Assembly (NCBI GenBank): GCA_016190245.1
Contig: JACPQY010000008.1
Coordinates: 1-64,000, forward strand
DNA: 64,000 nt
Source: Nitrospirota bacterium
GTDB taxonomy: Bacteria > JACPQY01
Direction of reading: 5' to 3'
Below, piece after piece: positions 14,362 through 27,630 of this stretch; position 1 is the first letter of the stretch; each line of letters starts with the position of its first letter. Position numbers and translations under genes: made by a program. The notes under the pieces are model-generated. The model saw only the letters and a list, made by a program, of their open reading frames with translations. It made no database searches and was not told the origin of the DNA.

Positions 14362-14574
14362 CTGCGGCGGATCATAGAGACGCGGGCGCTCGTGTCAAGT
14401 CGCGGGGGGGGTGGGCCGCATGCTCCTTTGTGGCATTGACGCGAAAGGCAGGGCGACCCGGTGGGCCCTCTCGCGCCGGAAACGAGGCAAATGAGCACGC
14501 CATCCTCGGAATCTCCGGGTGGGAACGCGCGGTCGCGACCTTCCCTCTGCCGGATCGGCGGATGAAAGGTGATC

Positions 14575-14610
14575 TTGAAGTCCCGCGGCATCGAAGGTTA
14601 CAATCCACGC
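14575..14610 (+). promoter_or_regulatory. leaderless promoter of the first DUF433 gene
   Basis: TTGAAG (14575-14580), an 18-bp spacer and TACAAT (14599-14604) stand 6 nt before the ATG at 14611. There is no Shine-Dalgarno, so a leaderless mRNA is expected. Confidence 0.5.
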
Positions 14611-14838
14611 ATGAGCTATCGCGAGCGTATCAGCGTTGATCCTGCCGTGCGCGGGGGCAAGCCGTGCATCAAGAATACGCGCATTACCGTTTACGATATC
14701 CTGGAGTATCTGGCGGGCGGGATGTCGGAAGCGAAACTGTTGGAGGAGTTCCCGAGTCTTACACAGGAGGATGTCCGAGCCGCCCTGGAATTTGCCGCGG
14801 TACGCGAGCGGAAGTTGGCGGCCTCTCGTGCGGCGTGA
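14611..14838 (+). CDS. DUF433 family antitoxin, module 1
   Basis: The 75-aa protein carries the DUF433 signature: RISVDPAVRGGKPCIKNTRI, then VYDILEYLAGG and EEFPSLTQEDVRAALEFA. DUF433 proteins are winged-HTH-like small proteins encoded next to DUF5615 (Mut7-C/PIN-like) partners and are regarded as VapB45-type antitoxins. Its TGA overlaps the GTG of the following DUF5615 gene, supporting coupling. The longer frame from 14569 is unlikely because the promoter -10 lies inside it. Confidence 0.85.
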   Translation: MSYRERISVDPAVRGGKPCIKNTRITVYDILEYLAGGMSEAKLLEEFPSLTQEDVRAALEFAAVRERKLAASRAA

Positions 14839-15185
14839 GGCTCTTGTTTGATGAGAACCTGAGCCCACGGCTCGTACAGCAGTTGGCCGCGGAGTTCCCG
14901 GACAGCACCCACGTTGATTCGGCGGGGTTGCGTGGCGCGCGAGATGAAGTTGTTTGGGGGTACGCCCGCGCTCACGGCCTCACCATCGTTTCGAAGGACA
15001 ATGACTTCCGCCAGATCGCCTTCTTGCAGGGTCCGCCCCCCAAGATTGTTTGGCTTTCGGTGGGGAATGAGGGAACCGAGGCCATCGTTCAGGCCCTTCG
15101 CAGACACAAGGCACGGATCCAGACCTTTTGTGCGGACCCGGAGGAAAGCCTGCTTGTTCTCGTTGCGGAAGACGAGCCGATCTGA
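14835..15185 (+). CDS. DUF5615 (PIN-like) toxin, module 1
   Basis: This 116-aa protein opens with LLFDENLSPRLVQQLAAEFP, has GARDEVVWGYARAHG in the middle and VSKDNDFRQIAF with paired acids, the DUF5615 / Mut7-C-like PIN-domain pattern. Conserved Asp residues suggest a metal-dependent RNase, as in VapC45-type toxins. Translation starts at a GTG overlapping the DUF433 stop (GTGA). It forms an operon of two with the upstream antitoxin. Confidence 0.82.
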   Translation: MRLLFDENLSPRLVQQLAAEFPDSTHVDSAGLRGARDEVVWGYARAHGLTIVSKDNDFRQIAFLQGPPPKIVWLSVGNEGTEAIVQALRRHKARIQTFCADPEESLLVLVAEDEPI

Positions 15186-15254: not shown

Positions 15255-15305
15255 TTGATCCCCGGAAGGGGTCGTGGTACTGTGGCGCTCTGACAGCGGC
15301 TGTCA
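15255..15305 (+). promoter_or_regulatory. WYL-gene promoter with TGACAGC-G-GCTGTCA palindrome
   Basis: TTGATC (15255-15260), a 17-bp spacer and TACTGT (15278-15283) form a plausible promoter with its start near 15290. The perfect 15-bp palindrome TGACAGCGGCTGTCA at 15291-15305 covers that point and includes the A of the ATG. This placement suits autorepression. The same palindrome occurs at 22301-22317 and 27614-27630. Confidence 0.6.
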
Positions 15306-16351
15306 TGGCGAAGAGGCGAGAATCGAAATCCATGGCCGGGATCACCTACCGGCCGCCGACCTATGGGGCCGCTGCGCGGTTTGCGCAGATCATGTACGGG
15401 CTCCAGCAGCGGCCGCTGGGATGGAGCCTGGAGGCCATGAGCGAAGACCTGCGGCTCCATCCGCGCACCATCGCACGGTATGCGGGGTGCCTTACAAAGG
15501 ACGTGGAGGATAACGAAGGGCGGCCGCTTATCATCTTGGAAGAGCGATACGGGAAGCCGCATCTGCGTCTGGCCGCGAAGCCGGTGGAGCCGCTTGACCT
15601 CAACGCCTCGCTGGCTCTCTCGCTCTACGCGGCCACCACCCTGCTTCGGTTCACGCGGGGGTCCCGGCTGTACGCGAGCCTTGAGGCGGCCCTCCAGAAG
15701 GCACTCGGCCGGCTCAGTCCGGGCGACCGGATGAAGCTCATGTCGCTCGAACGCAAGATCCACTACGTGCCGGACGGGCCGAAAGACTACTCGAACAAGG
15801 CGATCGTGCTCGAACGCGTCGTGGAGGGCCTGCTGCACCAGCGCAGACTGAAAGTGAAGTACACGTCCCTTTCCGGGGGAACGTGGGAGAGCTTGGTCCA
15901 CCCGTATTCCCTCATGATGTACAAGCGGGGCCTCTACATCATCGGGCATTCGGAGAAGCATGGGGACGTGCGCTACCTGGCCATCGAGAGGATTGACGAG
16001 GCCTCGATCACGGATGCCGTTTTCAACTACCCGGTGGGCTATCGTCCCGGCGACTACACGGATGGCTGTTTTGGGATCATTGATGGCGATCCCGTGGATG
16101 TTTCGATCCGGTTCAAGAAGGGCGCCGACGCGCTCATCACCGGCCGCGTATGGCACCCCACGCAGAAAATCACCCGATTGAAGAATGGCGACCTCCGCCT
16201 CACCATGCGCGTCCGCGGCACTGATGAACTCTTGCCGTGGGTCATGTCCCACGGGCCGTATGCCAAGGTGGAGGCGCCGGCGGAACTCCGGTCCGCGGTC
16301 AAGGACTGGCTGGCCGGGATGAAGAGGGGCTACCGATTCAGCGGGCCGTGA
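15305..16351 (+). CDS. WYL-domain transcriptional regulator
   Basis: 348 aa. The N-terminal third is a winged-helix HTH-like region (AARFAQIMYGLQQRPLGWSLE, LHPRTIARYAGCLTKD). The centre is a WYL domain (residues about 165-240: LKVKYTSLSGGTWESLVHPY, YKRGLYIIGHSEKHGDVRYL, AIERIDEASI) and the C-terminus a WCX-like extension (VDVSIRFKKGADALITGRVW). WYL regulators bind nucleic-acid or nucleotide ligands and often control mobile or defence genes. I start at ATG 15305, where the operator palindrome ends. Its 3' end is duplicated at 17246-17520 and 18591-18735. I infer that it recognises the TGACAGC palindrome also found upstream of the 20-27 kb genes. Confidence 0.9.
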   Translation: MAKRRESKSMAGITYRPPTYGAAARFAQIMYGLQQRPLGWSLEAMSEDLRLHPRTIARYAGCLTKDVEDNEGRPLIILEERYGKPHLRLAAKPVEPLDLNASLALSLYAATTLLRFTRGSRLYASLEAALQKALGRLSPGDRMKLMSLERKIHYVPDGPKDYSNKAIVLERVVEGLLHQRRLKVKYTSLSGGTWESLVHPYSLMMYKRGLYIIGHSEKHGDVRYLAIERIDEASITDAVFNYPVGYRPGDYTDGCFGIIDGDPVDVSIRFKKGADALITGRVWHPTQKITRLKNGDLRLTMRVRGTDELLPWVMSHGPYAKVEAPAELRSAVKDWLAGMKRGYRFSGP

Positions 16352-16574
16352 CGCTGGATGTGCCTTGGCAGGCGGGCGAATCGGTTCCACAGAGCCGGAC
16401 ATATGTCGAGGTATCTCATATCCCTGGAATCGCCTTGACCGCCTACCCGAAATGCAAAAACGGGATGGCCGTTCCTTCGTCCTGTGTTCGGCGGCTGAGG
16501 GGGGTATCTGATGGATGGATGAACCTGAATGGCGTTGTCAGGCGACTCGTTGGGGATTGTGATACACTGCGGTC
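16352..16574. other. spacer after the WYL gene
   Basis: The first 40 bp (to about 16392) are also duplicated after the stop of the WYL fragment at 17503. The rest holds no gene; at its end a -10-like TACACT (16563-16568) stands 6 nt before the GTG of the next DUF433 gene. Confidence 0.5.
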
Positions 16575-16820
16575 GTGGGAAAAGAGGGAAATCCGCTGGC
16601 ACGAGTAGTCGCGGACCCTGCGGTCTGTGCGGGGCAGCCATGTATCCGGGGCACCCGAATTCCGATCTCGGTCATCCTTGACAGTCTTGCGGAGGGTATG
16701 GCGCCGGAGGATATCATTGACCACTTTCCCAACCTTCACACGGAAGACGTTCGAGCGGCCCTTGCCTACGCGGCGGAGCTATCCAGAGAGAATATCTGGA
16801 AAGTTGCCGCCGGGACATGA
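16575..16820 (+). CDS. DUF433 family antitoxin, module 2
   Basis: 81 aa, GTG start. It has the DUF433 core (RVVADPAVCAGQPCIRGTRI, VILDSLAEGMAPEDIIDHFP, LHTEDVRAALAYAAE) and is a diverged paralogue of the protein at 14611. A TACACT hexamer ends 6 nt before the GTG and no Shine-Dalgarno is visible, so the transcript looks leaderless. It overlaps the downstream DUF5615 gene by ATGA, as expected for an antitoxin-toxin pair. Confidence 0.83.
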   Translation: MGKEGNPLARVVADPAVCAGQPCIRGTRIPISVILDSLAEGMAPEDIIDHFPNLHTEDVRAALAYAAELSRENIWKVAAGT

Positions 16821-17218
16821 AGGTCAAGCTCGACGAGAACATTTCAAGACATCTCAAACCCGACCTTGCCCGGCTTGGTCACGACGTAACCACCGCGGAA
16901 GATGAAGGACTCCTGTCGGTATCCGATGACAAGATCGCCGCTGCCATCAGGCTTGAAAACAGGATGCTCCTTACCCTTGATCTCGGGTTTGCGGATTTGC
17001 GCAGGTATGCGCCCGGTACGCATCCGGGTGTAGTCGTTTTCCGCCCCCATTCCCTCGGGGTTCGATCGGTCAGCCGCTTCGTTGAGTCATTTGTCCGGGA
17101 GGGAAGACTCGGCACGCTCTCCGGCTGTCTGGTGATTGTCGAGCCGGATCGTATCCGGATACGCAGAGCGGGTGCAGAGGGGGGTTCCGGGCGCAGCGGA
17201 GATGAGGAGCCGGCGTAG
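16817..17218 (+). CDS. DUF5615 (PIN-like) toxin, module 2
   Basis: 133 aa. DUF5615 features: KVKLDENISRHLKPDLARLG, TAEDEGLLSVSDDKIAAAI and LLTLDLGFADLRRYAPGTHPG with conserved Asp residues of a PIN-like nuclease site. It is longer than module 1 because of a Gly/Arg-rich tail (AGAEGGSGRSGDEEPA), which may be read-through after a disrupted end, since the duplicated WYL fragment begins right after the stop. The predicted role is an RNase toxin neutralised by the preceding DUF433 protein. Confidence 0.8.
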   Translation: MKVKLDENISRHLKPDLARLGHDVTTAEDEGLLSVSDDKIAAAIRLENRMLLTLDLGFADLRRYAPGTHPGVVVFRPHSLGVRSVSRFVESFVREGRLGTLSGCLVIVEPDRIRIRRAGAEGGSGRSGDEEPA

Positions 17219-17224
17219 GCGGGG

Positions 17225-17503
17225 GTGGTGGGGTTGCTCCGGATGGTGGACGTCTCATTCCGGCTAAGAAAGGGCGCCGACGCGCTCATCACCGGTCGCG
17301 TATGGCACCCGACGCAGAAGATCACCCGATTGAAGAATGGCGACCTCCTCCTCACCATGCGCGTCCGCGGCACGGACGAGGTTCTGCCGTGGGTCATGTC
17401 CCACGGGCCGCATGCGAAGGTAGAGGCGCCGGCGGAACTCCGGGCCGCGGTCAAGGATTGGCTGACCGGGATGAGGAAGAGCTACCGATTCAGCGGGCCG
17501 TGA
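17225..17503 (+). pseudogene. duplicated C-terminal end of the WYL regulator, copy B
   Basis: The 92-codon open frame from the codon after VDVSF to the stop is nearly identical to the last 84 codons of the regulator at 15305-16351 (GADALITGRVWHPTQKITRL, then VRGTDEVLPWVMSHGPHAKV, ending KSYRFSGP). Homology continues about 40 bp past the stop. It lacks the HTH and WYL core and cannot be a regulator. It is a partial duplication separating two accessory modules. Confidence 0.85.
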
Positions 17504-17564
17504 CGCTGGATGTGGCTTGGCTGTTTGGCGAATTGCACCCAGAGTGAGGAACTGGCGTAGGAAA

Positions 17565-17795
17565 TCAGAAATTCCGATTGACGATCGGACGTGTTTTCCC
17601 TCTTCGGTGATCGTCCAGGGCCTTGTCCGCCATCGCTCTCAGCTTGTGGGCATACTTTTGGTCTCGGAAAGCGCGTTGCCACTTTTCCTCGGCGACTTTC
17701 TCGGCCAAGAAGCGGGCATAGTCCAGCAACGCCCTCGCCTTCTCAGGCGGCAACCGATCAACAATTTGCGCGGTTTCCTTCGCCAACGTCGTCAT
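17565..17795 (-). CDS. small DUF2281-like putative antitoxin
   Basis: 76 aa from the ATG at 17795 (TTLAKETAQIVDRLPPEKAR, ALLDYARFLAEKVAEEKWQR). The LPPEKxxxLLDYxxFL pattern is that of small DUF2281 / VapB-like proteins often paired with toxins. No toxin gene is adjacent on this strand, so it would be an orphan. It is transcribed against its neighbours and lies between WYL copy B and the DUF5678 gene. Confidence 0.6.
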   Translation of the reverse strand: MTTLAKETAQIVDRLPPEKARALLDYARFLAEKVAEEKWQRAFRDQKYAHKLRAMADKALDDHRRGKTRPIVNRNF

Positions 17796-17879
17796 TCTTC
17801 GAGGATACCACGGGGGGCAGGCGCCGATCAACGGACCGAGGTCATGTCGGCTCGATGGTCGATCCGGCGAGGTCGCCGG

Positions 17880-17914
17880 TTGACCTGCTTTGACCCGGCA
17901 GGCATACTATAGGC
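17880..17914 (+). promoter_or_regulatory. leaderless promoter of the DUF5678 gene
   Basis: TTGACC (17880-17885), a 17-bp spacer and CATACT (17903-17908) lie 6 nt before the ATG at 17915; no Shine-Dalgarno. Confidence 0.5.
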
Positions 17915-18208
17915 ATGGCGACCCGCAGGAACGGGCGGACGAAAAAGAGGGCATCGAGAAAGCGCGCATGCCGGGCCAAGGACCCGCTCACGATTGCCCT
18001 GACGGTCGAAAACGAGTGGGTATCTCGGCACTATGACAGGCTGGTACGCCAGTATCCACGGAAGATCGTTGCCATCTCACACCGCCAGGTCGCCGGCGTC
18101 GGCGAGACGGGTGACGAGGCCCTCGCCTTGGCCCGTGAAAAGTATCCTAATGCCCTGCCCCTTCTCGTGCGCGTCCCCTCCCCCGAGGATCTCGTCTGCG
18201 TTCTGTAG
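17915..18208 (+). CDS. DUF5678 domain protein
   Basis: 97 aa. After a very basic N-terminus (RRNGRTKKRASRKRACRAK) comes the DUF5678 pattern: EWVSRHYDRLVRQYPRKIVA, then AISHRQVAGVGETGDEALAL and a C-terminal VRVPSPEDLVCVL. Such proteins of unknown function are commonly encoded directly before a small retropepsin-like protease, as here (38 bp to the next gene). A promoter 6 nt upstream implies a leaderless transcript. Confidence 0.75.
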   Translation: MATRRNGRTKKRASRKRACRAKDPLTIALTVENEWVSRHYDRLVRQYPRKIVAISHRQVAGVGETGDEALALAREKYPNALPLLVRVPSPEDLVCVL

Positions 18209-18246
18209 TCTTTTCATACACGCCGATCGGCCGGCACCTTCACCCG

Positions 18247-18591
18247 GTGATTCCCATCGGAATCCGCATCGGGCAGGAATGGCGGACGGCGCAGGTGTAT
18301 GTCGATTCGGGCTCGATGTACACAATCTTGGCCCCCTCGCTCGTCCCCGGAAGCTTCGATTGGAAAGCCGGCCGGAACGCCCAGGCAACTTCAGGCACGG
18401 GCCAGACCCTTGCCGTTTTTCTGCACGACCTCGACATCCAAATTGGGAACGACCGCTTTGTCGCGCCCGTCGGGTTTTCCTCCGACTTGAAAATCGGCTT
18501 CGACATCCTGGGCCGGAGAGGGATATTCGACCGCTACCGGATCGAGTTCAACGAGCCGAAACGGTTCGTGTCTTTCACGTCGGTGAAATGA
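18247..18591 (+). CDS. retropepsin-like aspartic protease
   Basis: 114 aa, GTG start. The single-domain retropepsin pattern is visible: AQVYVDSGSMYTILAPSLV, where DSGS is the catalytic Asp loop, a flap-like middle and FSSDLKIGFDILGRRGIFDR, with the family's LG-[RK]-x-x-F segment. Such proteins act as homodimers. Its partner is probably the DUF5678 protein encoded upstream; the pairing is common but its function unknown. The stop overlaps the next duplicated WYL fragment. Confidence 0.72.
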   Translation: MIPIGIRIGQEWRTAQVYVDSGSMYTILAPSLVPGSFDWKAGRNAQATSGTGQTLAVFLHDLDIQIGNDRFVAPVGFSSDLKIGFDILGRRGIFDRYRIEFNEPKRFVSFTSVK

Positions 18592-18764
18592 TGGTGCGCG
18601 TCCGCGGCACGGATGAACTCTTGCCGTGGGTCATGTCCCACGGGCCGTATGCCAAGGTGGAAGCGCCGGCGGAACTCCGGTCCGCGGTCAAGGGCTGGCT
18701 GGCCGGGATGAGCAAGTACTACAGGTCCGACAGATTCGCACTCGCAGGGGGCGGGCGAGGATGA
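18588..18764 (+). pseudogene. duplicated C-terminal end of the WYL regulator, copy C
   Basis: From 18591 the frame reads VRVRGTDELLPWVMSHGPYA and on to KGWLAGM, nearly identical to the last 50 codons of the regulator at 15305-16351, then diverges after GM (SKYYRSDRF). It overlaps the retropepsin stop and, through ATGA, the nuclease start at 18761. It is a short duplicated fragment, not a functional regulator, but may provide translational coupling to the nuclease. Confidence 0.8.
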
Positions 18765-19906
18765 CGTCCCCCGCTTCGCAACTTGGTGACCTGCTCGGCG
18801 TATTGCCGGGCAATCGCAAGGAGCCCTTTGTCACTCAGTTGCTGTCATTCCTCCTACGCTCCGACTCCGAGTTTCGTTCATCCTTCCTCGAGAAGTTTCT
18901 CCGCATTCCCGACGTGTGTGCCGAACACTACGACGTTGTTCCGGAGGATCCGACTGAGCAGGCCGAGGAGGAATCTCCAGAAGCGGAAGCCGATCCCGGT
19001 CGGATGGACTTTACGTTTGTTCCCCAAAGAAATGGATCCCAACTACCCTACATCGGTGTCGAGTGCAAGATTGGTGCCCGATTTGGGGAAGGCCAGCTCG
19101 ACAAGTATGCCTCCGACTTGACGGGCCGAAGTCATCGTCCGAAACCGCGACTATTCGCGATCACGCGGGATGAATTCACCCTAACAGATTTGGGTGCCAA
19201 GGGGCAGAAAGCCGTTCTGCTCAAGGCAACCAGTGGCATGCTGCGTCTTGATGGCAATGGGCTGTGCAGGGAGGGGAACAGGCAGGGATTGAGGACCTGG
19301 AATTGCCTATTCGACGTCATCAGCCCAGATGTTTCTCATTTCACACCTGCGACACGGGCTGGTTTGCGGCACATAAAGGAGGTAGCCATGGCGGAAGCAT
19401 TTCGAGGTTTTCAGAGCCTAAGAACAGGATCAATGACTATGGCCGATCTCGTCCAGGCACGTATTCTCCTCTCTCACCTCACCCGACGTGTGGCCAAGGG
19501 TAAGGGTGCTCATAGAGCACCTACCTTCCACCTGAAGCGCGGAACCTACAAGCCGAAAGAACAAGAGTCCTATCACCACTACCACTTTCTCCACACATGG
19601 AGGAAAGCGGGAAAGAGCTATCTTCACTTGTATGTGGTCGAATACCCAAATGACTCGGAGGTCTACCTGGAAATCCGTTATTGGAAAGGAAGGAGACGTG
19701 CGCGTTCTCTCCATTACCTCAGTCTCAAGATTGGCGGACACAATGCCAAGGATCTGTTGATGGAGAAGGCCAAGCAACCGAAGATAATCGCAGATGCCCC
19801 GGGCAATCTCGCGAAGGTCATCCGGGAGTGGGTTGAGGCCAAGGGATGGGAGCCGAGCGATTGCAAAGGAACATTCGGGGATTTTGACTGTTCTCTCGAC
19901 GAATGA
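18761..19906 (+). CDS. PD-(D/E)XK nuclease family protein
   Basis: 381 aa. The N-terminal half carries a PD-(D/E)XK-type site: RMDFTF (Asp), then IGVECKIGARFGEGQLDKYA, the ExK with the following Gln/Lys helix common in restriction-type and DUF-family nucleases. The C-terminal half is a separate alpha/beta region (TYKPKEQESYHHYHFLHTW, LHLYVVEYPNDSEVYLEIRYW) without a motif I recognise. It may be a defence endonuclease, standing alone without a methyltransferase. GC content is lower than in its neighbours, consistent with transfer. Start at ATG 18761, overlapping the WYL fragment. Confidence 0.72.
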   Translation: MTSPASQLGDLLGVLPGNRKEPFVTQLLSFLLRSDSEFRSSFLEKFLRIPDVCAEHYDVVPEDPTEQAEEESPEAEADPGRMDFTFVPQRNGSQLPYIGVECKIGARFGEGQLDKYASDLTGRSHRPKPRLFAITRDEFTLTDLGAKGQKAVLLKATSGMLRLDGNGLCREGNRQGLRTWNCLFDVISPDVSHFTPATRAGLRHIKEVAMAEAFRGFQSLRTGSMTMADLVQARILLSHLTRRVAKGKGAHRAPTFHLKRGTYKPKEQESYHHYHFLHTWRKAGKSYLHLYVVEYPNDSEVYLEIRYWKGRRRARSLHYLSLKIGGHNAKDLLMEKAKQPKIIADAPGNLAKVIREWVEAKGWEPSDCKGTFGDFDCSLDE

Positions 19907-19944
19907 GCTGGGTGCCCTTGATCCGGCAGAGGCGCCGGGGCAAA

Positions 19945-20229
19945 CTACCGCAGGACAAGAACCCACAACGCAGCTAGCGAGACGCCGCCCGGGCCATCAA
20001 TGGCCTTGCGGACATCGGCCATCTTGCCGATGGTTCTTCCGCTCGCATCCGTGATGGTGTCACTTTTCACCTTGGCGACAGTGACGCCGGACTTGTCAAC
20101 GATGTCGGTGCCGCGGATCCGCCCGAGCGTCACGCCGGAGGCGTTTCGGATGTCGTTGCCGGCCAGCCGGGCCTCGGTGACGCCCGACTTGTTTCTGAGA
20201 TCGTTCCCCACGAGTTTGTAGTCCGCCAT
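19945..20229 (-). CDS. beta-flower-type repeat protein
   Basis: 94 aa built from four near-identical repeats of about 18-20 residues: KLVGNDLRNKSGVTEARLAG, NDIRNASGVTLGRIRG, TDIVDKSGVTVAKVKS, DTITDASGRTIGKMAD. The pattern D-x-x-[ND]-x-S-G-x-T suggests a closed beta propeller or fourfold beta-flower domain. There is a short hydrophobic C-terminus (LAALWVLVLR). Shine-Dalgarno GGGGG precedes the ATG. It is the last gene of the leftward set from 22.3 kb. Function unknown; a binding or scaffolding role is a guess. Confidence 0.7.
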   Translation of the reverse strand: MADYKLVGNDLRNKSGVTEARLAGNDIRNASGVTLGRIRGTDIVDKSGVTVAKVKSDTITDASGRTIGKMADVRKAIDGPGGVSLAALWVLVLR

Positions 20230-20249
20230 TGAATCCCCCTTTCAGTTTC

Positions 20250-20540
20250 CTACCGGAATAGTCTGTGCCACCAACGGAGATAGAAAGGCTGAGGCCTGAG
20301 TCGCAGAAAGCCCCACCCGAAGTTCCGATTGTTCACGAAGAACCAGTCCCACGCTTTCATGTAGTCGGCCTCCGACAAGTCGGTATCGTAGCCGCGAGTT
20401 TTCAGGGAAGCCACGAAGAAGGCAGCGACGTCCCTCGCCAACTCTCTGTCCGCCTTCTTCACTAGCTGGTCCAGCGCAAGCCTCAAGTTCGGGTCCCGCT
20501 CCAGTAGCTGGGCAACCTGCCGCCAGTCGGTGAGAACCAT
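20250..20540 (-). CDS. small conserved-looking protein, unknown
   Basis: 96 aa, not recognised. The sequence is helical and rich in charge up to residue 65 (WRQVAQLLERDPNLRLALDQ, KKADRELARDVAAFFVASLK), with a Trp/Phe-rich end (KAWDWFFVNNRNFGWGFLRL, FYLRWWHRLF) that may be membrane-peripheral. GGAGG lies 7 nt before the ATG and 3 nt separate it from the upstream deiminase stop, so it is in that operon. Confidence 0.65.
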   Translation of the reverse strand: MVLTDWRQVAQLLERDPNLRLALDQLVKKADRELARDVAAFFVASLKTRGYDTDLSEADYMKAWDWFFVNNRNFGWGFLRLRPQPFYLRWWHRLFR

Positions 20541-20543
20541 GGC

Positions 20544-21485
20544 CTACCTCCGCCGGGAGACTTCCGCAGCAGACGCGACCTGCTTGGGGTACGTTGCCGT
20601 GATGCAATTCAAGACCCCGCCGTACGCGGCAAGCCGCCTGCAGTCGATTTGATGGTACTCCAGGTCCGGCCTCACCCTTTTCAGGGTCGCCACGGCCGTC
20701 CTGTCCATGCCGACGCCATAGGCGGGGACCAAGACCTTCCTGCCGTTCCTGTAGAAGTTGACGTAATTCCCGGCCGCGCTCGTCAGGCTGTCGGTGACAA
20801 AGCACGGCAGCCTGAGCACGGCTATTCCTGATGGGCCCAGCTTGCCCACCAGACAGTCGAACAGTTCGTTGTGGAAATCCTTCATCTCCTTGTCCTCATC
20901 GTACGATGCCACCATGAGAACATCCTTGTCCAAGAAACGGCAGTAGCCGTCGGCGTGACGGATCGGGTCGCGCTTCTCGTACTCGATAGCGACCAACCTT
21001 ACCCCGAAAGCGGCCTTGAACCAAGCGACCCACCCGGAAGCATCGAGGCCGGTGTTGCAGAGCATGAATTGCTTGGTCACGATGAGAACATCCCTGCCGT
21101 TGTAGACGAAATTGCCGCCTTCGCTGGTGAGGGGCACCCGGCGCAGGGGGAGTTTCAGGCGGCGAGCGATGGCCTCGATTCCTCGTGTGGCGCTCATGGC
21201 GTCGGTGAAGGCGGCGGCGCTTGGCTCCGCGTAGGAGGGTTCGTACTTGGGACACCAGAGGAAGCGAGCGCCCTTCGCCTGGAGGAGGATCGGCGCCCAA
21301 TCGCGGATCCAGAAATCCGTCAGCCAACAGTTCTCCTCGTCCAGGAGCACGACATCCGGCTTGAGCAGGTCAGCAATCTCCCGGAAAGTGTCTTCGAGTC
21401 CGGCTCGCCGCGGTGGCCGCACGAGATACGCCGTTCCCCCCATGAATTCGGCGCTCACAAGCCTACCCAATTGTCTCACGTGCAT
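20544..21485 (-). CDS. agmatine deiminase / peptidyl-arginine-deiminase family protein
   Basis: 313 aa. The guanidine-modifying (PAD_porph-type) catalytic residues are in place: DFWIRDWAPILL, TSEGGNFVYNG, the HxD in PIRHADGYCRF and the nucleophile Cys in AYGGVLNCITATYPKQV. Such enzymes release ammonia from agmatine or arginine-type substrates. The sequence departs from true agmatine deiminases in many places, so substrate is open. I choose the ATG at 21485, preceded by GAGGAAGG. It is part of the leftward operon with the FlhB-like gene upstream and two small genes downstream, an unusual setting for polyamine metabolism. Confidence 0.78.
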   Translation of the reverse strand: MHVRQLGRLVSAEFMGGTAYLVRPPRRAGLEDTFREIADLLKPDVVLLDEENCWLTDFWIRDWAPILLQAKGARFLWCPKYEPSYAEPSAAAFTDAMSATRGIEAIARRLKLPLRRVPLTSEGGNFVYNGRDVLIVTKQFMLCNTGLDASGWVAWFKAAFGVRLVAIEYEKRDPIRHADGYCRFLDKDVLMVASYDEDKEMKDFHNELFDCLVGKLGPSGIAVLRLPCFVTDSLTSAAGNYVNFYRNGRKVLVPAYGVGMDRTAVATLKRVRPDLEYHQIDCRRLAAYGGVLNCITATYPKQVASAAEVSRRR

Positions 21486-21633
21486 CCTGGGCCCTTCCTC
21501 TGACCTTTTACGATCTCCTGAAGGTGGTATCAGGTCCCGGTCGCGGTTCATCAAGCACTCGGTAGCCTGCCTGATCGTAGTCGGCGATAATCGTCGAGTC
21601 CGCTCCCAGACCGGCGGCAATGCCGGGGGCGGA

Positions 21634-22098
21634 CTAGCCGCGTTCATGGGGAAAGAGCGGCAGTTGGCGGCTGTGAACCCGATACACGCGGGCCAAGACC
21701 TTGGCGACTGCCCAGTACAGATTGGCAGGAATGAATGTCCCTCGTGGAGTGGAAACCTCCAGCGCGCGTGCCAAGGGAGTGTCCTCGCAGATCGGCACGC
21801 GGCCGGCCCGGGCGCTTCCGAGGGCTGAATCGTAGGACAGGTTGCCGCAGACGTCGAGTACGACAGGGGCGATCATGAATTCCGGATCGTAGTGGACGCT
21901 GATGGCGAGGGAGACTCCGTCCACAATCAGCACATCTGGAAGGACATGATCGGGGACGTCTACCAGTCCGTCATCGAGGCCCTCCTCCTGTGCAGGACGA
22001 TCTGTAAGGTGAGCATGCGCGCTTCTTGGCAGGGCCGGAACAACACTCCCGGCGGCAAGCACCGCAAGTCCATTCCTGACGAACGTTCTTCGATCCAA
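21634..22098 (-). CDS. Tat-exported FlhB C-terminal-domain-like protein
   Basis: 154 aa. The N-terminus RRTFVRNGLAVLAAGSVVP to AHA is a good Tat signal. After a linker the rest aligns by eye with the cytoplasmic export-switch domain of FlhB/EscU: DVLIVDGVSLAISVHYDPEF, MIAPVV, VPICEDTPLARAL, FIPANLYWAVAKVLARVYRV. The autocleavage NPTH is replaced by DGVS, so no cleavage is expected. FlhB itself is an inner-membrane flagellar/type III component, and no other flagellar gene is present. TTG at 22098 follows GGAAGGAGG by 5 nt and is preferred over ATG 22122. Function unknown. Confidence 0.72.
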   Translation of the reverse strand: MDRRTFVRNGLAVLAAGSVVPALPRSAHAHLTDRPAQEEGLDDGLVDVPDHVLPDVLIVDGVSLAISVHYDPEFMIAPVVLDVCGNLSYDSALGSARAGRVPICEDTPLARALEVSTPRGTFIPANLYWAVAKVLARVYRVHSRQLPLFPHERG

Positions 22099-22118
22099 GA
22101 TGGCCTCCTTCCAGTTCA

Positions 22119-22277
22119 TCATTGCGGGGACCTGCGGGAATATCTGGAGATCCGTTCGAGGCCCTTCTTGATGCGTTCACCCTCGCGCAGGACGTTTTTC
22201 CAGTGGTGAAGAAACCATCTCCAGGGGAAGTCATCTTCCCGAATCCGCTCCACGCTACGGCTTGGTTTCCGTTTCAC
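22119..22277 (-). CDS. 52-codon basic small ORF
   Basis: GTG start; the product begins KRKPSRSVERIREDDFPWRW and ends YSRRSPQ. It is strongly basic and amphipathic (FLHHWKNVLREGERIKKGLE) with no recognised domain. A TAGACT hexamer (22290-22285) lies 7 nt before the GTG and the operator palindrome sits immediately upstream, so it appears to be the first gene of the leftward operon, translated without a Shine-Dalgarno. It ends at 22119, just before the FlhB-like gene. It could instead be a leader peptide. Confidence 0.5.
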   Translation of the reverse strand: MKRKPSRSVERIREDDFPWRWFLHHWKNVLREGERIKKGLERISRYSRRSPQ

Positions 22278-22284
22278 ACGCTTG

Positions 22285-22333
22285 AGTCTATCCCCGGCGC
22301 GTGACAGCCGCTGTCACATCTCCCGCGTATACT
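22285..22333. promoter_or_regulatory. divergent promoter pair around one palindrome (operator 22301-22317)
   Basis: GTGACAGCCGCTGTCAC at 22301-22317 is a perfect 17-bp palindrome about a central C. Each arm provides a GTGACA -35-like hexamer. Rightward, TATACT lies at 22328-22333; leftward, TAGACT lies at 22290-22285; both are separated from their -35 by exactly 21 bp. The spacing is longer than the normal 17 bp, as at activator-dependent promoters. Confidence 0.65.
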
Positions 22334-22355
22334 GACGAGGCATGGAGGGGGGAAC

Positions 22356-24497
22356 ATGAAACGACGCGGGAAAGTCACCTCGGTCCCTGCACCGGAGGCA
22401 AGCCCGTTTGGACCATGCGTGGACGACTACGCCCACAACCTGCTCGTGGGCACTTCGCTCCGGCGTTTGGATGAGGCCGGCCTACGGCGGATTGAGTCCG
22501 TCGAGCCGGTGCTCAGGATGGTCTGTGCGACGACGGCGAGGGTTGCCGGGAGGGGCGCCAAGATCGGGGACTTCACGCGGGAAGACCTCCGGCGACGGCT
22601 GCGCGCTTATCTGCGTGGGTGCAGGAATCAGACGCGACCCCCGGGACCTGCAGATTCGCGGGTGGCGGACAACCTTGGAGTGATAGGGAACCTCTTGGAT
22701 CTGGACGAACACCAGAGGGCGGTGTTTCAGTTCATTCTGGCGCTGCACGATAGCCGCGAGATCAAGGAAATTGTGGAGACCTTCGGTGCCGTCTCGGCTG
22801 TCCGGGCGGCTTCGCTCATCGCGGCTGCCACAACGATATCGAACGATCACGTCATGAGGGCACTGGATCGAGCCGGTGGCCTTCTCGCAAGTGGCTTGGT
22901 GGAGATTGACGCGAAGGGCAGCTACTCCCTCGAGGGCAAGGTTACGCTCAAGCCCGGTGTTCTGGATGAATGTCTTGCGCCCGGCCTTGACCGTGATCGG
23001 CTCATCTCGCGGTTTCTGCCCCCGGCAGGGGTGAGTCAACTTGGCTGGGATGATTTCGAGCACATGCGGGTGCCGGGCCGCACGGCTCGAGACCTGCTCG
23101 CCGGGACTCTCCAGTCTCGGCGTCCGGGGGTGAACGTCCTCTTCTACGGGGAAACCGGAACCGGCAAGACGGAACTGGCGAAGCTGCTGGCTCGAGACAT
23201 TGGCACGACACTGTACGTGGCCGGACGGGCGGATGAAAGCGGGGAGTCTGCCCACGCATGGGAGCGGCTGTCGTCCCTGCTCCTTGGTGAGCGGCTTCTC
23301 CGAGACGGCACATCACTCCTCCTCTTCGATGAAATGGAGGATCTCTTTACATGGGAGTTTCATGGCACCCACCCACGCGGTGTCCCCTCGATGTCGAAAC
23401 AGTGGTTCAATAACCTCCTGGAAAACACCCCCGTTCCCACCATTTGGATCACGAATCTCGTCGAAGGAATCGACCGGGCGTTTCTTCGGCGGTTTTCCTA
23501 CGCCGTGGAATTTCGCCCAATCGGACCCCGGCAGCGCGCCCGGGTGTTGAATCGGCATCTTGGTGAACAGGGTCGAATTCCTCCATCGGACGTAGAGCAG
23601 ATGGCGCAAAAGTTCACCGTCAGCCCAGCTCAACTCCGAAGTGCCGTGGAGTCCGCCCGCTTGATTGCCGGTACTGCTCCTCCAGATCGCGAAACGATTG
23701 AGCACGTGCTCGCGCCGATGCAAAAGATTGTAACGGGCGAGGATCCCGAAAAGCGTCCTGTGTTCGACGCCACCGCGTACCGGATTGACGCCCTGAACAG
23801 TGTTGAGGATCTTGGACGGATCGCGGATCAGCTCACAAGGTGGGAACCGTCGCGAGGAGCCGGGGTCTCAATGTGCCTCTACGGCCCGCCCGGCACGGGG
23901 AAGTCCGAATACGCGAAATATCTCGCGCACCGCATGGGCAGACCCATACTCTACCGGCACGCATCCGACATCCTGGGCCCCTTCTGGGGGCAAACAGAAG
24001 CGATGATCGCGGAGGCCTTCCGCAGGGCGACGGACGAGGATTCGCTCCTCCTTTTCGACGAGGCGGATTCATTCCTCCGCGACCGGCGGTCGGTGATGCA
24101 TTCCTGGGAGACGATCCAGGTGAACGAATTCCTTCAGCAACTCGAATCGTTCCGGGGTGTGGTCGTCTGCACGACCAATCTTTGGCACAACATTGACGAG
24201 GCGGCGCTCCGGCGTTTCATTTTCAAGGCCGAATTCCGCTACCTCCGGCTGGAGCAGGGTGTGGCGCTATTCCGCAGCAGTTTCTCCCCCTACCTTGACC
24301 GGCCGCCCTCGGAGGATGACGTTGGGATGGTGTGCTCTGCCCTCGCCGGTATCGGCAACCTCGCTCCCGGCGATTTCGCAGCGGTCAGCCGACGCTGGCG
24401 GGCTATGGGAAATCGCTCGACCGCCCGCGAGCTGGTTCAGGCTCTCGTGAGCGAGGCACGTGCAAAGCCCGGCGCCGCCGGACCGATTGGGTTTTAG
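22356..24497 (+). CDS. tandem AAA+ ATPase
   Basis: 713 aa, cytoplasmic. An N-terminal helical region (1-240) is followed by two AAA+ modules. Module 1 has Walker A GETGTGKT at about 265-272 and Walker [12 protein letters not shown] at about 325. Module 2 has Walker A GPPGTGKS at about 510-517, Walker [11 protein letters not shown] near 568 and a sensor-1-like [11 protein letters not shown]. Both modules look catalytically complete, as in unfoldase or remodelling ATPases. GGAGGGGGGAAC supports the ATG at 22356. It has the WYL palindrome 38 bp upstream and converges with the Tat/metallophosphoesterase/zinc-finger operon, stop codons touching at 24494-24497. No known protease subunit is adjacent. 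Confidence 0.85.
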
Positions 24498-25009
24498 CGA
24501 CGATATTGCGCGTCAAGCGAGCGAAGATAGCACACCGCGCCGACGGTCGAGGCAAGCAGATTGGCCAGGAAACGTCCGAATCTCCCGAAGAGGAACGAGG
24601 CGGACGGTCCGTCTGTCTCGTCGCTCCGATCCAAGGGGAATGCCACGATCGACACGCCTCTGCCGAGGAGGTAGTCGCCGGCGATGCCGATGCGGTTCAT
24701 GCACTCGATAGCTTTCCACTTCGTTGAAAACGCCCCGTGCCAGGTTACATGCCCCCTCCGCTCGGTCTGAATCAGATAGATCTCCTTCGGGTACCGGCTG
24801 CACGCTTCGGGAGAGTCCCCGGCGGGGCTTTTGTTCAGGATTCTCCGCTTGTCCCGGCTTCCGGTCGCTTCGGCGACAATGTCAGCGCAAAGCTCTACGC
24901 ATTCATCGCAGATGCAGACGCCGGGACCGGCGATGAGCTTGCGAACCTCGTGCTGTCCTTTGCCGCACCAGGAACAAACCGGCAGGCCTGACTCAGCTTC
25001 GCTGGACAT
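24494..25009 (-). CDS. ClpX-type C4 zinc-finger protein
   Basis: 171 aa. The first 45 residues are a ClpX N-terminal zinc finger: [20 protein letters not shown], then [14 protein letters not shown], with all four Cys. In ClpX this domain binds substrates and adaptors. The AAA+ part is missing here; the remainder ([34 protein letters not shown]) is unrelated. It overlaps the metallophosphoesterase end by 17 bp and is the last gene of that operon. It might present substrates to the convergently encoded tandem AAA+ protein, an inference from its domain and location. Confidence 0.78.
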
Positions 25010-25745
25010 CGCTTTCGGCGGGAGCGTCCAAGAGCGTGCCCTGCGGCCCGGGGTTGATGATGAGGGTGTCGCCGATTGTATCGGTTGCGCCGAAACGGTC
25101 GTGGAAGTGGCCGCAGATGACGATGCGGGGTTTCAGGACTTCGGCGATGTTCCGGACGATCCGACTGCCCTGTGCTCGTCCCCCGGAATGGCCTTGGAAT
25201 TGTCCGTTCTCGTAGATTGGCTCATGACCGCACCCTCCGCCTGGTCCTGCGATGCCGTCCTGGCATCGGTCGGTGCTTCGGGTGCAGGCCGTCCGGTGGC
25301 CGCAGCACGCCGTGCCTGCCGGGGGGTAGTGGGACACGAGAATCAGGGGCAGCGACAGGTTGAGTTGACTCCGAATGAGGTGCAAATACGTGTCCATGGC
25401 TTCGAGGTCCTCTTCGTGGTGTGGGCTGAGGTCGTCGGTGCCGTCAATTCCGGCGATCTGAACACCGGCCACCTTCACAACCTTGCAGCCGATCCAATGG
25501 CAGCCTGGGTAAAACGCTTCGATACGCTTACACATTTTCGGTGACTCATGATTCCCCGCGATGAAGTAGACGGGGATCCCAGCGTCGGCGATGAGGCGCC
25601 ATGAATCCTCCCGACTCTCTTCGAACACCGCAAAATCTCCGCCGCAAACCAAACACTCGACCTTCTTTTCCTGAGCCAGGGAAGCGATCTTCCTTGCTGA
25701 CCCTGCCGAGCCGTGATGATCGGTGAAGGCCACGAAACTCGTCAT
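24993..25745 (-). CDS. calcineurin-like metallophosphoesterase
   Basis: 250 aa from the ATG at 25745. The dinuclear metal site is visible: [34 protein letters not shown] and [10 protein letters not shown], in family order. Substrates of this fold range from phosphoproteins to nucleotides and cannot be predicted. A cysteine-rich insertion ([18 protein letters not shown], then GGGCGHEP) between the fourth and fifth motifs is unusual. It is coupled by ATGA to the Tat-exported protein upstream and overlaps the zinc-finger gene downstream. Confidence 0.85.
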
Positions 25746-27577
25746 GTCGACACCTGAATCCTTGTTCCATACGACCGGACGCACAACGCCGCGCCCACGA
25801 TGGAAATCAGCGGGTCAAGTTCGTCCATGAGCTGGCGGCCGTGATCAGCTGCCTCAGGGGAGTTCAGTTGCTCGTACAGTACTTGTCCATGGACCTCGTC
25901 GGGACTCTGGCGGAAATGTGTAAGGGCTGCGAGAGTACCTTGCTGCCCGGTTTCCAAGAGCCAGGTAAATGCCGCCGCGCGCGCTCTGGCATCGTGGCAC
26001 GAATCGAGCCCATGCGAGATCTCAGCCGCCCATGCAGGCGTACCCCAGCGGCCGCACAGAAGACGTCCCCATGTTGCTTCGGGTTCGGTGGAGATCCCCT
26101 GCCAACCACCGAATAGTTCGAGGATGTTGCGGGGGACGACATCGGGGCGGAAGAAAAACACGTGTTCTGCAAGAGAAAGACGGTCTTCCCCTGATGCCGT
26201 AGCTATCCAGTCGCTAAGATCCGGCTTGAGTCCTGTCACTTGGTTCCACCAGAGAGGCTGAAGCCCTCCGGATTCTCGCAGGCGGTCATAGCTCAGGTCA
26301 TGCAGCCATTGACGGCCTGCCACGGAACAGGCGAGACGTTTCATCATCCACCAATCCCAACCCTCATGCCCCACCTCCCTATGGAGTTTCCGGATGGCGG
26401 AACGGAGGGAGTTCTGGTCCAACAGGTAGCCCAGCGTGAAAACGGCTTCCAACCTATCTTGGGCCGGCGCTGCCCGGGCGACGCGGACAAAGTCATCCGG
26501 AGCGAACCGTTCGCCCTGACTGATGAGCCAGCGCCCAACACGTGCGATTGCATCCGTCCCCCCATTCGTCCATCGCTCGGGGTGAGGATCCGCGAGCGCG
26601 CGGTCGAGTTTTCGTCGGGTCTCACGCGGGTCGAGAGAGATTGAACCGCCCCGAGGCCCATGCCCGAGCAATTTCCCAGCCGCCATGAGGACTGCGACAG
26701 GGCTACGCGAGTGCTGATACACGTCCAGCAGCAAATGGGCGCACCTGCAACAGTTCGCGACTGCCTCGCCGGATACGGTGGGCCGCCGGGCGGAAGGATG
26801 GACGACTTCCGGACTGTGCCAGCCGCCGGGGGGAGAGAGAAGGAAGAGCGCTTCTTCCGGGTGGCTGGCAGTTGCGATGAGTCTGTGGAATTCGGCGTCC
26901 CATGGGGTGGGCGGCCAGTCGAAGAACGCGAGCAGGATTTCGGTTTGGATTCTCTCATCCACATCCGAAAAGCGGGGGCCGAGTACTGGCATTATCTCCT
27001 CCGGGGGGAAACTTGAAAGAAAGCCGGGCCAGAGGTCATCCACCGGCCAAGTCTCGCTATTAGCGATCGCATGCAAACAGTAGTGTCGGTATTCGGGGGA
27101 GACCTCGAACAGCTTGGATCGCGCGTACCAGTCGCCATTGTTTGCGCGGTCCCGCAAAAGGGCCAAGCACCTCGGGGTGGCGGGTAATGGGCAATCCCAG
27201 AAATCGTAATCGAAATTCAACAGTGAGTCCTTCATGGAGAGTTGCTTCTCAATCCAATTCGGCTCAAGCCTTGCTCTTGCGACTGAAAGGGCGCGCATGT
27301 AATTGGCAGCCTCGGCGCACGGAGGCGGCAATCGAAGGTTCTTGATCCATTCGAGGGCCTTGGGACTCCCGCTCCGGCCGAGCGCATCTATCACGACGGG
27401 GTCCATGGGGCCGCCCCGGCACTCCCATTTCAGAAGGATGCTGGTGGCGCGATCAAGTGACACCCTGGTGTCTCCAGGCATCGTTGCCGGCTCTCGCCAT
27501 GGAGCCCGCAGCACGGGGCGGGCGAGGAGTCCAGCTGTGGCGACCCCCGCGGTGCAGATGAATTCCCTTCGTCTCAT
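25742..27577 (-). CDS. Tat-exported 611-aa protein, unknown
   Basis: The start MRRREFICTAGVATAGLLA is a twin-arginine signal (RRREFI), so a folded periplasmic protein is expected. The rest has no family I recognise; it is alpha-helical, Trp-rich, with HEAT-like helix pairs (PKALEWIKNL, DRLEAVFTLGYLLDQNSL, ALTHFRQSPDEV). Shine-Dalgarno CAGGAGG is 5 nt from ATG. It heads an operon with a metallophosphoesterase and a ClpX-type zinc-finger protein and has the WYL palindrome 37 bp upstream. Confidence 0.7.
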   Translation of the reverse strand: MRRREFICTAGVATAGLLARPVLRAPWREPATMPGDTRVSLDRATSILLKWECRGGPMDPVVIDALGRSGSPKALEWIKNLRLPPPCAEAANYMRALSVARARLEPNWIEKQLSMKDSLLNFDYDFWDCPLPATPRCLALLRDRANNGDWYARSKLFEVSPEYRHYCLHAIANSETWPVDDLWPGFLSSFPPEEIMPVLGPRFSDVDERIQTEILLAFFDWPPTPWDAEFHRLIATASHPEEALFLLSPPGGWHSPEVVHPSARRPTVSGEAVANCCRCAHLLLDVYQHSRSPVAVLMAAGKLLGHGPRGGSISLDPRETRRKLDRALADPHPERWTNGGTDAIARVGRWLISQGERFAPDDFVRVARAAPAQDRLEAVFTLGYLLDQNSLRSAIRKLHREVGHEGWDWWMMKRLACSVAGRQWLHDLSYDRLRESGGLQPLWWNQVTGLKPDLSDWIATASGEDRLSLAEHVFFFRPDVVPRNILELFGGWQGISTEPEATWGRLLCGRWGTPAWAAEISHGLDSCHDARARAAAFTWLLETGQQGTLAALTHFRQSPDEVHGQVLYEQLNSPEAADHGRQLMDELDPLISIVGAALCVRSYGTRIQVST

Positions 27578-27597
27578 GGGTACCTCCTGAAGTCGCT

Positions 27598-27630
27598 ATG
27601 GTACCGGCAGGGGTGGACAGCCGCTGTCAC
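27598..27630 (-). promoter_or_regulatory. third palindrome-embedded promoter, Tat operon
   Basis: The palindrome at 27614-27630 (centre 27622) matches 22301-22317 except in its outermost two bases. On the minus strand GTGACA (27630-27625), a 21-bp spacer and TACCAT (27603-27598) repeat the geometry of the two promoters at 22.3 kb to the base. Confidence 0.6.

Follow-up and report, generated by a model that had tools for sequence, protein, structure and literature searches.

A shared palindromic site suggests that a WYL regulator controls three neighbouring transcription units in a Nitrospirota bacterium

Results

Positions 1 to 64,000 of contig JACPQY010000008.1 (assembly GCA_016190245.1, Nitrospirota bacterium), referred to here as the window, contain a gene for a WYL-WCX transcription factor, three transcription units with eight genes, and three copies of a short palindrome, one at the start of the WYL gene and two at the heads of the units. 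A preliminary description of this DNA had recorded the palindrome and proposed a WYL-governed regulon that defines a multigene system. It had missed the spacing between the palindrome and the -10 elements, and the fixed operator-to--10 architecture reported below is a new element, which points to activation of the three units rather than to their simple repression. The palindromic sites (operators 1 to 3) and the elements around them are as follows (nt, nucleotides; aa, amino acids; SD, Shine-Dalgarno).

15255..15283, + strand: predicted WYL promoter, TTGATC (15255-15260), 17-bp spacer, TACTGT (15278-15283)
15291..15305: operator 1, TGACAGCGGCTGTCA, exact match, over the predicted transcription start and the ATG of the WYL gene
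15305..16351, + strand: WYL-WCX transcription factor, 348 aa (Pfam WYL 7e-13, WCX 1e-16)
22285..22290, - strand: -10 element TAGACT of the leftward operon, 16 nt from TGTC
22302..22316: operator 2, TGACAGCCGCTGTCA, in a 17-bp palindrome (22301-22317), common to two divergent promoters
22328..22333, + strand: -10 element TATACT of the AAA gene, 16 nt from the T of TGTC, followed by SD-like GGAGGGGGG
27598..27603, - strand: -10 element TACCAT of the HEAT/phosphoesterase/zinc-finger operon, 16 nt from TGTC, followed by SD-like AGGAGG
27615..27629: operator 3, GGACAGCCGCTGTCA

The 13-bp core GACAGCNGCTGTC was perfect at all three sites. The longer form TGACAGCNGCTGTCA was exact at 15291-15305 and 22302-22316, whereas at 27615-27629 the sequence GGACAGCCGCTGTCA has one mismatch, a G instead of T at the first (outermost) base. 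Thus the three places given in the preliminary description stand, with two exact copies and one near copy, but the 17-bp frame that it drew at 27614-27630 is symmetric only in its core (27616-27628) and asymmetric beyond it. The window contains no further copy, as had been stated; the nearest sequence, at 23259, has three mismatches. Shuffled windows gave a mean of 0.00 palindromes with perfect arms (0-6 central bases), against the two observed.

We then counted sites over the whole genome (3,293,575 bases in 86 contigs, 84.8% complete) and found the palindrome nearly confined to the locus. Allowing up to one mismatch, it matches four places only, of which three belong to this locus. The core occurs five times, and the two copies outside the window lie within coding regions, one in an exopolysaccharide-chain-like gene (contig C10, position 196127) and the other in a membrane-protein gene (contig C50, position 19441). 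At the outside density, about 0.0075 core copies would be expected in 12.3 kb, compared with the three seen (P ~1e-7 by our own estimate). Because the flanks of the copies are dissimilar, the copies are not part of a longer repeat. A reading of the palindrome as an RNA hairpin was rejected, since its 1-nt centre gives no loop unless pairs are opened.

All three target promoters share the pattern GACA-N5-TGTC-N12-TANNNT (hereafter the full pattern). The AAA gene promoter reads TGTCACATCTCCCGCG and then TATACT, the leftward operon promoter TGTCACGCGCCGGGGA and then TAGACT, and the HEAT operon promoter TGTCCACCCCTGCCGG and then TACCAT. Scanning offsets from 4 to 44 showed TANNNT in all of these promoters at 16 alone. 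If the -10 hexamer is set at -12 to -7, the centre of the site falls at -31. No -35 box was seen at the targets, where a consensus scan of the region gave one promoter-like site, on the other strand, and the target promoters have no extended -10 either. An SD-like sequence lies directly behind the -10 element at two of the three starts, and the leader of the leftward operon is longer (~156 nt).

At the WYL gene the arrangement is different. Operator 1 starts 8 nt after the -10 element, that is, downstream of it in a blocking position, and its final base is the A of the WYL ATG (15305). The predicted promoter is weak; it lies under the threshold of the consensus scan and was read from the sequence. 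The autoregulation suggested in the preliminary description fits this position, just downstream of TTGATC-N17-TACTGT.

The full pattern had five matches in 3.29 Mb and its reversed control none. Three of the matches are the target promoters, and a fourth belongs to the promoter that diverges from a WYL paralogue (50% identical, contig 75). The fifth may be due to chance; it precedes a lipoprotein-like gene, and a third, distant WYL gene lies about 2 kb away. Four of the five matches lie at the two related WYL genes or no more than ~13 kb from them. When the gap was left free (6-18), five of the seven genome matches had a gap of 12. The WYL paralogue, the only close one, has a palindrome of its own, the variant TGGGACAACGGTTGTCCCA, in the corresponding position, where it follows the paralogue's -10 element at the same distance of 20 nt. 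Because this variant occurs once in the genome, no regulon of the paralogue beyond its own locus is shown. The gene divergent from the paralogue (contig 75, 11361-12602, - strand) encodes a DUF6745 protein and has TGTC-N12-TATCAT ~390 nt upstream.

In the WYL protein, an N-terminal winged helix-turn-helix (HTH) was judged by eye and was matched by no model, and two of the three typical arginines of the WYL domain are kept, also by eye. One full WYL gene is present at the locus. Its 3' end (16094-16392) is repeated downstream at 17246-17544 (299 nt, 88% identity) and 18595-18722 (128 nt, 94% identity), and these 3' fragments encode WCX only. Two DUF433 and DUF5615 toxin-antitoxin-like pairs flank the full gene (14569-15185 and 16575-17218), the second of which, with other small genes, separates the repeats. 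This arrangement has the appearance of a regulator that was duplicated and decayed more than once.

All eight open reading frames from 19945 to 27577 lie behind a site, as the preliminary description had it, and form three units with small overlaps or gaps between their genes. Operator 2 heads two divergent units, with four genes leftward and one rightward, and operator 3 heads one leftward unit of three genes.

22356..24497, + strand: unit A, 713-aa double-AAA ATPase (Pfam AAA 4e-34; both Walker A/B motifs by eye)
21634..22122, - strand: unit B gene 1, 162 aa, Tat-type signal (by eye) and FlhB C-terminal-like domain (Pfam Bac_export_2 2.5e-13, C-terminal end of the profile)
20544..21647, - strand: unit B gene 2, 367 aa, PAD/agmatine-deiminase-type enzyme (Pfam PAD_porph 9e-27; catalytic Cys region GGVLNCIT by eye)
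20250..20540, - strand: unit B gene 3, 96-aa protein of no family
19945..20229, - strand: unit B gene 4, 94 aa, 5-fold beta-flower protein (Pfam Bflower_2 1.4e-10)
25742..27577, - strand: unit C gene 1, 611 aa, Tat-type signal (by eye), weakly HEAT-like (Pfam HEAT_2 5.5e-4, below cut-off)
24993..25784, - strand: unit C gene 2, 263 aa, calcineurin-like phosphoesterase (Pfam Metallophos 1.5e-12; PADLOC PDC-S10 5e-9)
24494..25009, - strand: unit C gene 3, 171 aa, ClpX-type C4 zinc-finger protein without the ATPase (Pfam zf-C4_ClpX 1.5e-17)

The deiminase, the phosphoesterase and the zinc finger retain their typical motifs by eye. PADLOC found no known adjacent defence system and gave, in the cluster, partial similarity of the 713-aa protein to IetA/TRIP13 and candidate matches only; no BREX or CBASS genes were detected in the cluster. 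Two of the proteins carry Tat-type signals, which is unusual for intracellular defence. The first protein of unit B joins such a signal to the FlhB C-terminal-like domain with the rest of FlhB absent, an odd pairing.

Plasmids and genomes of other lineages carry relatives of the 713-aa AAA protein that are 28-38% identical to it. At 11 of the 16 plasmid AAA loci viewed, a WYL gene lies within ~10 kb and is often adjacent (that of an unannotated Azospirillum record was found by tblastn), and the neighbours include restriction, helicase, BREX-2, HEPN and nuclease genes. A reading of these plasmid loci as ARMADA- or DISARM-like was dropped; a search of the ARMADA paper gave no mention of an AAA protein. 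In 5 of 22 loci GACAN5TGTC occurs in the 250 bp ahead of the AAA start, compared with 0.07-0.17 expected and a maximum of two in 2000 shuffles. Two scans of 84,980 species genomes gave no close relatives of the AAA protein or of the WYL pair, nor did one viral scan, and the AAA gene is absent from the one other genome of the phylum that the analysis covered. Among plasmids, no relatives of the HEAT protein were found, and among the matches listed there was no sign of relatives of the PAD and zinc-finger proteins in the records with AAA and WYL genes. The other cluster genes were not found together anywhere. The recurrent defence setting is thus that of the AAA-WYL pair only, so that of the regulon and multigene system first proposed, the local regulon is well supported by the confinement of the sites, the paralogue's palindrome and the full pattern, whereas the multigene system holds in part.

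The full pattern recurs in two other genomes chosen for their AAA gene, with seven matches in one (G151) and six in the other (G230) and none for the control; four further AAA-bearing genomes tested (G139, G234, G094 and G318) had none. In G151 the genes after the pattern include those for HsdM, a BPTD_3080 restriction endonuclease, two ArdC-like proteins, and PcfJ-like and HAD proteins. In G230 they include those for RadA, a RecC-like protein, a WYL regulator, the AAA protein and a candidate defence ATPase of type PDC-S01. With the gap left free, 13 of 17 matches in G151 had a gap of 11 or 12, and the spacing in G230 is 12. The aligned promoters read GTGACA-N5-TGTCACA-...-TATANT. The radA and recC-like genes of G230 (L128 and L138) share the promoter pattern of that genome's AAA and WYL genes, which suggests an SOS-independent repair regulon there.

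Discussion

We compared the locus with known WYL regulators. The solved structures nearest to the WYL protein are the WYL chains 8tp8, 9pfq, 9cu3, 7tzv and 7u02, which bear only generic molecule names (WYL domain-containing or DeoR-family regulator) and which we take to be DriD, the WYL activator of an SOS-independent DNA-damage response in Caulobacter. The relationship is distant, covering the helical-WYL-WCX region (phmmer E ~5e-9) with the HTH unaligned. DriD binds ATACGAC-N7-GTCGTAT over a poor -35 element at a constant distance from the -10 element, and it activates once single-stranded DNA (ssDNA) is bound (PMC12340889). Its half-sites GAC-N7-GTC correspond to GAC-AGCNGCT-GTC at all sites here, and in both systems the site occupies a poor or absent -35 region at a constant -10 distance, where it is the constancy that is compared and not DriD's own length. 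The present case differs from DriD in its targets, which would be three units in a local cluster, and in the blocking position of the self-site.

PafBC, a mycobacterial WYL heterodimer that acts by sigma adaptation, recognizes TGTCRgtg-8nt-TAnnnT (PMC5656591), which has the same TGTC-N12-TANNNT spacing and no -35 element. The spacing agrees at all three targets and the purine after TGTC at two of three, but the gtg is not found. PafBC consists of two different WYL subunits, encoded by adjacent genes, that read one half-site, whereas here there is a single WYL protein and a full palindrome. SiwR of Mycobacterium smegmatis, another WYL activator, has its 19-bp palindrome next to its own gene and upstream of the -10 element, but its one target operon consists of DinB-like genes and the genes here are others. 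BrxR and CapW, by contrast, are WYL repressors of defence operons (BREX, CBASS and others), and in the case of BrxR the boxes that mediate repression directly follow the brxR -10 element (PMC9122601). The WYL protein here resembles them in its WYL-WCX family, in the self-operator just after its own -10 element and in the defence-island setting of the AAA relatives. Their inverted repeats lie over or just after the -10 element, an arrangement found here only at the WYL gene, the sites of the targets being at -31 with a fixed spacing.

These comparisons suggest, with a probability of roughly 60%, that a new defence or DNA-damage module is under the control of a WYL activator like DriD and PafBC, which probably responds to ssDNA and represses its own gene. 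The WYL protein would be a dimeric regulator reading GACA-N5-TGTC (here GACAGC-N-GCTGTC). At the target promoters its site, centred at about -31, would replace the missing -35 element, and the protein would recruit or stabilise RNA polymerase on the weak -10 element (TANNNT), as DriD and PafBC do, and so switch on the three units with their eight genes. At its own gene, where the site covers the transcription start, binding should repress and keep the level of the WYL protein down. The trigger would most likely be ssDNA or DNA damage, such as that of a phage attack, sensed by the WYL domain. We favour activation at the three targets because the promoter geometry of DriD and PafBC points to it, and repression of the WYL gene because the BrxR-box arrangement is present there.

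It is possible, but on balance unlikely, that the WYL protein represses everything, acting as a BrxR/CapW-type repressor of all four promoters. Its palindrome would then coincide in part with the -35 region at the targets, and the genes would stay silent until ssDNA or another ligand caused its release. BrxR and CapW do repress defence operons through inverted repeats (with 5-bp spacers in BrxR) beside or over promoter elements, and the site at the WYL gene is positioned like a BrxR box. However, target promoters with neither a -35 element nor an extended -10 would be weak without help, repression does not require an identical -10 distance at three targets (or 11-12 in G151 and 12 in G230), and the structures closest to the WYL protein are those of an activator. 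We consider it quite improbable that another regulator or an alternative sigma factor reads the palindrome, with the WYL gene as no more than one of the genes it controls. WYL binding of the palindrome is a prediction, and the site is mostly absent from distant WYL genes, but all five full-pattern matches lie near WYL genes, the paralogue's palindrome differs in sequence and not in geometry, and DriD, itself a WYL protein, has the same half-site geometry. That the copies are chance or inherited palindromic words of a G+C-rich genome with no regulatory meaning is hardly credible; the two further core copies in coding regions would fit this, but the excess of promoter-region copies over expectation, the fixed -10 spacing and the dissimilar flanks speak against it.

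Several findings nevertheless weigh against a WYL activator of a defence or damage module. BrxR and CapW, which are related to the WYL protein, act on defence operons as repressors. In a profile alignment, the polymerase-contact arginines of DriD (the R120-R122 stretch in a three-helix bundle) fall largely in an insertion that is absent here, so that the polymerase contact must differ from that of DriD, and the third typical arginine of the WYL domain is replaced by alanine. Apart from the paralogue, the WYL genes found were all distant (~25-33%), and 1 of 29 of them has GACAN5TGTC at its own start; the motif in G151 and G230 is not tied to a particular regulator. In a survey of 336 genomes most had no match or one, and the controls scattered too; since single matches are frequent in the controls, a single match proves nothing and only clusters or outliers count. 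Finally, for the majority of the eight genes no connection with defence is known.

More tentatively, GTGACA-N5-TGTCAC-N11/12-TANNNT could be a promoter class across bacterial phyla that is read by WYL activators and forms SOS-independent damage regulons of anti-phage, restriction and DNA repair genes, with the present cluster as a previously undescribed defence module among them. The spread across phyla was judged only from the stated kinship of the genomes, which belong to the same domain. The DNA words read by WYL proteins are known for few of them, although these proteins control many defence islands. With a rule of operator plus spacing, regulons could be recognized directly in the sequence and WYL promoters sorted into activator and repressor types. 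Such a rule would also link DNA damage to the induction of defence and repair genes and place the unnamed double-AAA ATPase module in a regulatory context. The genomes G334, G297, G145, G259 and G090 were selected because their counts are high, so they lend no independent support to the spacing. Several full-pattern matches occur in three of them, with eight sites in G334 and four each in G090 and G297. At ArdC-like genes on two contigs of G151, pattern sites form two divergent pairs, L131/L133 and L137/L139, with about 90 bp between the sites.

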